Source: Anaerobaca lacustris (GTDB lineage: Bacteria; Planctomycetota; Phycisphaerae; Sedimentisphaerales; Anaerobacaceae). Taken from it: DNA of 64,000 bases. The stretch covers positions 1 through 64,000 of the forward strand of contig NZ_JASCXX010000001.1 in NCBI RefSeq assembly GCF_030012215.1. Direction: 5' to 3'. This document shows, piece after piece, positions 28,916 through 30,679 of this stretch. Positions within the stretch are counted from its first letter, which is position 1; the number at the start of each line of letters is the position of its first letter. Made by a program: the position numbers and the translations under genes. The notes beneath the pieces were generated by a model. It was not told the DNA's origin and ran no database searches. It saw only the letters and a list, made by a program, of their open reading frames with translations.

Positions 28916-30679
28916 ATGGCGTTTCTCGGATTGCACGTAGCCGTGTGGATGGTCCTGGTGGTGTACTTCGCCGGCATGCTGCTGATGGGCTGGTGGAGCA
29001 GGCGGGGCATTCACGACCAGGAGGGCTATCTGCTGGGCAACCGGCGGTTCGGCGTCTGGATGATGGTGATGCACGCCTTCGGCGCCGGCACCAATCCGGG
29101 CGACGTCGCCGGCGTCGTCAGCAAGACCGTCTCGGGCGGCGCCTCGGGCATCTGGGTGTCGTGGATGTGGATGTTTGGCACGCCGTTCTACTGGCTGATC
29201 GCGCCGATTGTTCGACGGATGCGATGTCTGACGCTGGCCGATTTCTTCCAGGAGCGGTTCGGAAAGCCTGCCAGCGCCCTGTATATCCTCGTGGCCACCG
29301 CCGGAATGATCGTCTGCCTGGCCAGTGTGCTCCTGGCGACCGCGCGGACGGCGCAGGGGCTGATGGGCAAGGCGACAGCGGAAGTGACCTCGGTCGACGC
29401 GCCGGATGGGGCAGCTGTAGGTCGTGCGTCCTCGCACGACGAGGCGAGCGGGGACGCTCGCCCTACGGTGCTGACCCCGCGAGAAAGCGAGGCGTGGTTC
29501 TTCGGGATTCTCCTGGTGACCACGGCGGTCTTTCTTGTCTACAGCTACTGGGGCGGCATCGTCGCGGCGATTCGAACCGACATGGTCCAGGGCCTGATGA
29601 TCATCGCGCTGTCGGTGATTGCGATCCCGATGGCGCTGAATCTCAAGGAGGTCGGCGGCCTGGCGGGCATGCGCCAGACGCTGGCGGCGACGGACCAGGG
29701 CAATCTGCTGAGTCTGTTCGATCCCGGCGTGTTCGATTTGTGGACGGTGATCGTGCTGTGCATCAACGCACCGCTCAGCGCGCTGGCCTTTCCGCACCTG
29801 ATCCCGGTCTGCGGCGCCGGCCGGACCGAGTGGGAAGGGCGGGTCGGCTTCACCTATGGCAACATGCTCAAGCGAATCTGCACTATCGGCTGGTGCCTGC
29901 TGGGCCTGGCCTGGCTGGCCTACCTGCTCGAAACCGGCTCGGCAATCCATCCCGACGCGGCCTTTGGCGATTCGATTCGCATGCTGCTTTCGCCGCTGCT
30001 CCAGGGTGTGATGCTCGCGTGCGTCCTGGCGACCGCGATGTCGTCGGGCGACGCGTTTCAGATCACGGTGGCCGGGCTGTTCTCCGAGAACATCTATCGT
30101 GTCTACATCCGCCCCGGCGCCGACGAGAAGCACATGGTGCATGTCACGCGAATCGCCGGCATTGTGATCGTGCTGGTCTCGCTGGTCGTGGCGGTTCTCA
30201 TGCGACAGAGCGTCGTCGGCGCCATTCTCGACTACTTCAACATTCTCAGCCTGGTGGGCGTCTCGACGGCGATGGGCATCCTCTGGCGACGCATGAACAC
30301 CACGGGCATGTTCTGCAGCACGATCTCGGCGGTCATCGTATTCGTGATCACCCGCTACGTTGGCGGTCTGCCCCGGCACGTGACCATCGCGGCGCCGATT
30401 CTGGTCGGCCTCGTCGCCGGTGTCGTTGGCAGCCTTCTCACCCGGCCGCCAAACCGCGAGGCGCTCGAACGGTTTCTGGCGAAGATCTACGTGCCCATCG
30501 GACAGGAGGCCAGGCTCGCCTTGCCGCTCGATGAGGCGGTCCCGCCGTCACAGCGATGGCTCACCGCCGGCGGGTTGTTTGTCGTCAAGCCCTCTCGTCA
30601 GTCGTGGCTTGGCTTCCTCGTGACATTCGCCATCTGTGTGCTGTGCGTGGTCGTAATGCAGGCGCTGCTGAAAGGCTGA
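28916..30679 (+). CDS. Sodium:solute symporter family transporter
   Basis: A 587-residue integral membrane protein of the SSS family with about 13 hydrophobic segments, the first at residues 5-25 (HVAVWMVLVVYFAGMLLMGW). The first inter-helix region has the DQEGYLLGNRRFGVWMMVM stretch typical of these carriers and a GAGTNPGDVAGVVSKT substrate/Na+ segment. Residues around 168-184 (AVGRASSHDEASGDARPTV) are encoded by a 50-bp symmetric double hairpin that looks like an inserted REP element and forms an unusual polar stretch in a loop between membrane segments. The C-terminus ends with a single hydrophobic segment. The stop overlaps the next gene by one base (TGATG). Presumed substrate: the product of the neighbouring nucleoside hydrolase, or whatever the UroD-like partner uses. 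Confidence 0.9.
   Translation: MAFLGLHVAVWMVLVVYFAGMLLMGWWSRRGIHDQEGYLLGNRRFGVWMMVMHAFGAGTNPGDVAGVVSKTVSGGASGIWVSWMWMFGTPFYWLIAPIVRRMRCLTLADFFQERFGKPASALYILVATAGMIVCLASVLLATARTAQGLMGKATAEVTSVDAPDGAAVGRASSHDEASGDARPTVLTPRESEAWFFGILLVTTAVFLVYSYWGGIVAAIRTDMVQGLMIIALSVIAIPMALNLKEVGGLAGMRQTLAATDQGNLLSLFDPGVFDLWTVIVLCINAPLSALAFPHLIPVCGAGRTEWEGRVGFTYGNMLKRICTIGWCLLGLAWLAYLLETGSAIHPDAAFGDSIRMLLSPLLQGVMLACVLATAMSSGDAFQITVAGLFSENIYRVYIRPGADEKHMVHVTRIAGIVIVLVSLVVAVLMRQSVVGAILDYFNILSLVGVSTAMGILWRRMNTTGMFCSTISAVIVFVITRYVGGLPRHVTIAAPILVGLVAGVVGSLLTRPPNREALERFLAKIYVPIGQEARLALPLDEAVPPSQRWLTAGGLFVVKPSRQSWLGFLVTFAICVLCVVVMQALLKG
29417..29466. repeat. 50-bp double-hairpin REP-like element inside the symporter gene
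   Basis: Symmetric structure: GTAG (29417-29420); hairpin 1 GTCGTGCG-TCCT-CGCACGAC (29421-29440); GA (29441-29442); hairpin 2 GGCGAGCG-GGGA-CGCTCGCC (29443-29462); CTAC (29463-29466). Both stems are perfect 8-bp stems with 4-base loops, and the outer GTAG/CTAC are inverted copies. The element does not break the reading frame. Its borders match those of the hairpins at 2842 and 42815. Confidence 0.75.

Follow-up and report, generated by a model that had tools for sequence, protein, structure and literature searches.

Anaerobaca lacustris carries a head-to-head pair of GTAG-type REPs read in frame within a predicted disordered loop of a sodium:solute symporter

The window analysed here is a 64,000-nucleotide stretch of the Anaerobaca lacustris genome. 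It includes a sodium:solute symporter gene whose codons contain a 50-bp double hairpin:

28916..30679, plus strand: host gene, sodium:solute symporter (SSF, PF00474, E = 3e-25), 587 aa
29363..29476, plus strand: codons of the predicted disordered loop holding the element, residues 150-187 (from pLDDT and orthologues)
29417..29466, plus strand: 50-bp head-to-head dimer of GTAG-tagged REPs, coding for residues 168-184 (V-GRASSHDEASGDARP-T)
29417..29440, plus strand: left arm, unpaired GTAG and hairpin GTCGTGCG-TCCT-CGCACGAC
29441..29442, plus strand: 2-nt linker GA between the arms
29443..29466, minus strand: right arm, read on that strand as unpaired GTAG and hairpin GGCGAGCG-TCCC-CGCTCGCC

On the plus strand the full order of 29417-29466 is GTAG-GTCGTGCG-TCCT-CGCACGAC-GA-GGCGAGCG-GGGA-CGCTCGCC-CTAC. 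An earlier reading made from the letters of this DNA alone (the sequence-only reading) had described it as GTAG-(8-4-8)-GA-(8-4-8)-CTAC with TCCT and GGGA loops, and this description is exact, with both 8-bp stems perfect. Folded as single-stranded DNA, the 50 bp form two independent hairpins that leave GTAG and CTAC unpaired (-22.2 kcal/mol, z = -5.3), and none of 200 shuffles folded as well. Two of the four perfect 8-4-8 hairpins in the window lie within the element. First-order Markov simulations of the window predicted ~1.8 of them in 64 kb, and in 60 of these simulations no two occurred within 10 bp of each other. Rfam contained no RNA family matching at E <= 1 across 28-31 kb. Elsewhere in the window, GTAGGGTGTGC-TCC-GCACACC...CTAC at 2842-2873 is a weak single-hairpin relative.

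The reading frame had been proposed to stay open through the element and to produce a polar stretch between membrane helices. Both proposals were borne out: the ORF at 28916-30679 (+) is uninterrupted, and an AlphaFold2 model of the symporter (21 orthologues) predicts residues 150-187 as a disordered loop, in coil conformation between helices 117-149 and 188-212, with pLDDT < 50 at residues 156-183. The orthologues come from Phycisphaerae / Sedimentisphaerales MAGs, which places the host among the planctomycetes of that group. Comparison with them showed that the same loop is not common to all. Most outgroups have only about 5 to 8 residues there, against about 26 to 42 in the genus, and the DNA of the loop also differs among orthologues. 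However, a clean empty site was absent from the symporter locus among congeners, because two sisters, G005 and G001, hold another palindrome family (GGGTGGCAGCCTCAAGC...) in the same loop. The loop contains yet another inverted repeat in G003 and is shorter in G002. The right flank of both symporter-loop elements, that of A. lacustris (G000) and that of G001, starts GGTGC. A candidate remnant of the sister palindrome in the left flank was rejected, as its alignment was no better than those of shuffles (20% or more as good).

The palindrome in these sisters belongs to a third family, GGGTGGCAGCCTCAAGC-GCTTGGGGATGG, which is often arranged in head-to-head pairs and matches 11 to 61 times in each of the genomes G000 to G005. 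It is read in frame as WQPQAKLGDG in symporter and M56 loops. Examples are:

G005:C35:4629-4710, third-family palindrome
G001:C645:8492-8572, third-family palindrome

We searched for the 50-bp element throughout its own genome (5.73 Mb, 117 contigs) and in five congeners (G001-G005), most of the compared genomes being draft MAGs. Element sequence occurs at 43 places in the A. lacustris genome, and inspection of each in turn identified at least 26 of these as complete two-arm copies; the others are single arms, or copies broken up by further repeats. At L036, L037, L038, L039 and L033 the arms or linkers are interrupted by another repeat (GAGCCTGCCCTGAGC...GTCGAATGGGA), giving repeats nested in repeats. 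The constant arms are GTAGG-TCGTGCG-TCCY-CGCACGA-C and, inverted, GTAGG-GCGAGCG-TCCC-CGCTCGC-C, separated in complete copies by linkers of 1 to 9 nt (usually 2 nt in A. lacustris, 1 nt in G029 and 3 nt in G004). Across the 26 copies the last G of the GTAG tag is invariant and G1, T2 and A3 are each conserved at 90% or more. Across copies 97% of stem positions are paired, and at two pairs both partners have changed. A covariance model detected the family in all five congeners and in G029 (another genus of the same family), gave few matches in G036 (same family) and 30 in G039 (another family), and found almost none in other relatives. The model returned at least 58 matches each for A. lacustris and G029, with both strands of near-symmetric copies counted. 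Since such tallies are lower bounds that count near-symmetric copies twice, we use the 26 complete copies as the count. The genome-wide repetition anticipated by the sequence-only reading is therefore present, and extends to relatives.

These copies are dispersed stem-loops with an unpaired GTAG foot, their hairpins fold alone, and the two REPs are inverted with GTAG outside. The element is thus two GTAG-type REPs set head to head, an organization like that of REPINs and BIMEs. Its unpaired outer ends are GTAG/CTAC and so lack the CGTC tag of Rickettsia palindromic elements (RPEs). That the loop varies in all congeners might have suggested that it is simply native protein, with the double hairpin produced by chance or codon choice. 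Near-identical 50-bp copies in unrelated genes and between genes refute this reading, which we regard as having virtually no chance of being correct, and the simulations contained no hairpin pair. A chance origin of the hairpins is ruled out by the dispersed copies together with those simulations.

Judged by codon-usage scores, the absence of stops and alignment with orthologues, 11 of the 26 complete copies lie within genes and in frame. The host genes encode the SSF symporter, a Gfo/Idh oxidoreductase, DUF6057, AddB, a helicase, a BNR_2 sialidase-like protein, an M56 peptidase, FtsK/SpoIIIE, ScpB, a pectate-lyase-like protein and DapF. Six further in-frame copies were found in relatives, in QueA and DapF of G004 and in radical SAM, SpoIIE, ArgJ and RGL11 proteins of G029, and the intragenic share of complete copies is 4/20 in G029 and 2/about 16 in G004. 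Insertion points in coding sequence are disordered loops, signal-peptide junctions or linkers, with three in-frame copies directly following a likely signal peptide.

By our own frame calls in these draft genomes, the element starts at codon position 1 in 15 of the 17 coding copies, at position 2 in two and at position 3 in none. In the unused position 3, GTAG would read as a TAG stop, and between the two open phases a 15:2 division has a probability of about 0.001. The favoured-phase peptide is VGRASSHDEASGDARPT, that is VGRASS..., or VGRASPLASS... from the other strand. Selection on the peptide, beyond mere avoidance of stops, is the simplest reading of this bias.

The history of individual sites was followed across the congeners. 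The dapF gene is empty in G002, G003 and G005, and in A. lacustris holds a 56-bp copy with a net gain of 57 bp (56 + 1), which shows that the pair was gained as a whole. In G004, the most distant of the five congeners by DapF and symporter identity, a 56-bp copy occupies the same codon in opposite orientation and with an unrelated linker. It is possible that dapF received two independent insertions, or one that was inverted and several times lost. A DapF model, weak and at most supportive (mean pLDDT 61, five sequences), places the insert in coil with pLDDT < 50, at a position where the loop varies in length in solved DapF structures too.

In AddB and the FtsK-like gene, G005 has a 28-bp single palindrome of the GTAGGGGCGAAT-NATN-ATTCGCCCCTAC type where A. 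lacustris has the 50-bp pair. G001 and G002 carry worn versions of the 28-bp palindrome at these sites, and the A. lacustris sites are 21 bp longer than the 28-bp state. This single-hairpin GTAG family, GTAGGGGCGAATNATNATTCGCCCCTAC, is read in frame in the AddB, FtsK-like and M56 proteins of the sisters, and has 24, 17, 115, 14, 0 and 48 matches in G000 to G005, respectively (control 0). The M56 loop of G002 and G005 contains the 28-bp family, the third family and an apparent worn copy of the 50-bp pair. In the helicase gene the element is not a simple addition, as it takes the place of about 29 bp of ordinary coding sequence.

These re-used codon positions could reflect exchange, in which a transposase acting on a resident palindrome would swap GTAG palindromes of different families by excision and re-entry at the same foot. 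Such exchange would leave as its traces the 28-bp single versus the 50-bp pair in AddB and the FtsK-like gene, the two orientations in DapF and the two families in the symporter. We put this idea forward tentatively and think it somewhat doubtful; it is based on two or three sites, where independent insertions into permissive loops could serve as an alternative.

A candidate mobilising enzyme was identified in G004, where a RAYT gene has the element on both sides:

G004:C230:4054-4680, intact RAYT gene, 209 aa, PF01797, with Y1_Tnp domain
G004:C230, 4724-4781, two-hairpin element upstream of the RAYT gene
G004:C230, 3734-3791, 3816-3917 and 3953-4054, three element copies downstream of the RAYT gene

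A RAYT gene bordered by hairpins in this way is termed a REPtron (PMC8266576). The RAYT gene that the sequence-only reading proposed to look for therefore exists in a congener, but not in the draft assembly of A. lacustris itself, which has only three PF01797 matches, none flanked by the 50-bp element. In A. lacustris, mobilisation by a RAYT is therefore an inference. The short, palindromic and dispersed nature of the element would also suit a MITE of a DDE transposase, or the remnant of a larger IS, with terminal inverted repeats and a target-site duplication. However, instead of a single pair of terminal inverted repeats it has two separate hairpins, each with a GTAG tag, and the transposase gene that it flanks in G004 encodes a RAYT; no target-site duplication was found beside the 26 complete copies, and the dapF gain is 56 + 1 bp. 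We consider such an origin highly unlikely.

The A. lacustris assembly has just one RAYT of the G004 subtype, with 46% identity; it is embedded in valS, and the hairpins on either side of it belong to another family. We do not claim it as the source of the element, because its flanking hairpins are of that other family; moreover, G012 and G032 carry the valS insert, yet a covariance search found no element copies in them. In this arrangement a whole RAYT (HUH motif NHVH, about 200 aa) stands in frame and stop-free inside valyl-tRNA synthetase (G000:C13:127293-128198; L046, L283), directly before the ATTRPETM motif, and most such ORFs are 1220-1360 aa long. The insert is bordered by REP-like hairpins whose sequence varies between species. 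It also occurs at G029:C103, G032:C550, G107:C86, G012:C7, G025:C61, G127:C14, G119:C270, G015:C14, G078:C60, G075:C49 and others, in about 16 of 89 family genomes and about a dozen genera, a scattered, intein-like distribution, and is absent from the five congeners searched. A literature search returned no paper on a RAYT within valyl-tRNA synthetase.

Together, these results favour, with a probability of roughly 0.87, the reading that the 50 bp are a copy of a genome-wide, mobile-type GTAG REP pair that was spread by a RAYT, landed in the symporter loop and is translated there and tolerated, not favoured by selection. This supports the central suggestion of the sequence-only reading, that a REP-type pair landed in the gene and was tolerated as a loop, and neither of the findings that this reading had named as refuting it was obtained. 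Against it stand the absence of an element-flanked RAYT from the A. lacustris assembly, the lack of a clean empty site at the symporter in congeners, and the helicase gene, where coding sequence was replaced. The element very likely spread as folded single-stranded DNA processed by RAYT (TnpA-REP, an HUH tyrosine transposase). The RAYT would recognise and cleave the folded strand at GTAG plus the hairpin foot. The copy at this locus would have inserted into codons of a long, variable, disordered loop, and may have survived because two of the three phases per strand are stop-free and the favoured phase yields a short polar, loop-like peptide, VGRASSHDEASGDARPT. The insert is presumably translated, with an effect on the symporter that is probably neutral.

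Alternatively, the element may have been kept because its peptide or mRNA hairpins are useful, in mRNA stability, translation pausing or as a functional linker. Extragenic REPs have roles in mRNA stability and gyrase binding, which counts in favour of usefulness, as do the strong phase bias, with one peptide in 15 of 17 copies, and the hairpins that are still perfect in the symporter and several coding copies, though the sisters' M56 copy seems worn. Against this, the host proteins are unrelated, their orthologues manage without the element, and the insertion points are disordered loops, signal-peptide junctions and linkers. The phase bias would also be expected if the polar phase alone were tolerated. 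We therefore judge retention for usefulness unlikely and prefer the tolerated REP insertion.

REPs are by definition extragenic, and about 40% of the complete copies here read as protein, in dapF, scpB, addB and the symporter gene among others. Among congeners a given codon can be found empty, occupied, inverted or differently occupied, which makes the genus a natural experiment on REP entry, exit and mutual replacement, and on the single-step gain of protein loops. G004:C230 provides a candidate RAYT/REP pair for biochemistry.

Di Nocera et al. 2013 (PMC3733652) described GTAG REPs that form head-to-head dimers with 1-2 bp spacers, are linked to RAYTs and include intragenic in-frame copies, and also reported different REPs at about the same recB site in two Xanthomonas species. 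In-frame GTAG REPs are thus already known, and the present element is a further member by the same features. With the head-to-head dimers of that study, such as the GTAG-17 dimers of Opitutus terrae with their 1-2 bp spacers, it shares the unpaired GTAG foot, perfect stem, GTAG outside, very short spacer, in-frame intragenic copies, the RAYT link and occurrence in the PVC superphylum (PMC3733652). Unlike them, it is a heterodimer of two fixed arms, and the likeness to GTAG-17 is one of description, stem sequences aside. REPINs (Bertels and Rainey 2011, PMC3116915) and E. coli BIMEs are likewise inverted REP pairs that spread as a unit and are RAYT-linked, but they are mostly extragenic, whereas here the spacer is 1-9 nt and about 42% of complete copies lie in coding genes. 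The Rickettsia palindromic elements RPE-1/4/6 are also palindromes read in frame in proteins; however, RPE-1 is longer, and RPE-4 and RPE-6 are members of the CGTC super-family, whose repeats PMC3733652 does not report as RAYT-associated, whereas the present element is of GTAG type. IS200/IS605 elements and REPtrons (TnpA-REP; PMC8266576) have a hairpin-bordered HUH transposase gene, as does G004:C230 with its candidate mobiliser, but most copies here are non-autonomous. In the literature compared, we found no description of one codon that is empty, occupied, inverted or differently occupied across species, nor of a phase bias. Beyond the GTAG REPs of PMC3733652, this genus documents sites that are empty in some species, a site hit twice in opposite orientations, and single codon positions holding different families; the freshest of these results is that different REP families have re-occupied one codon position.
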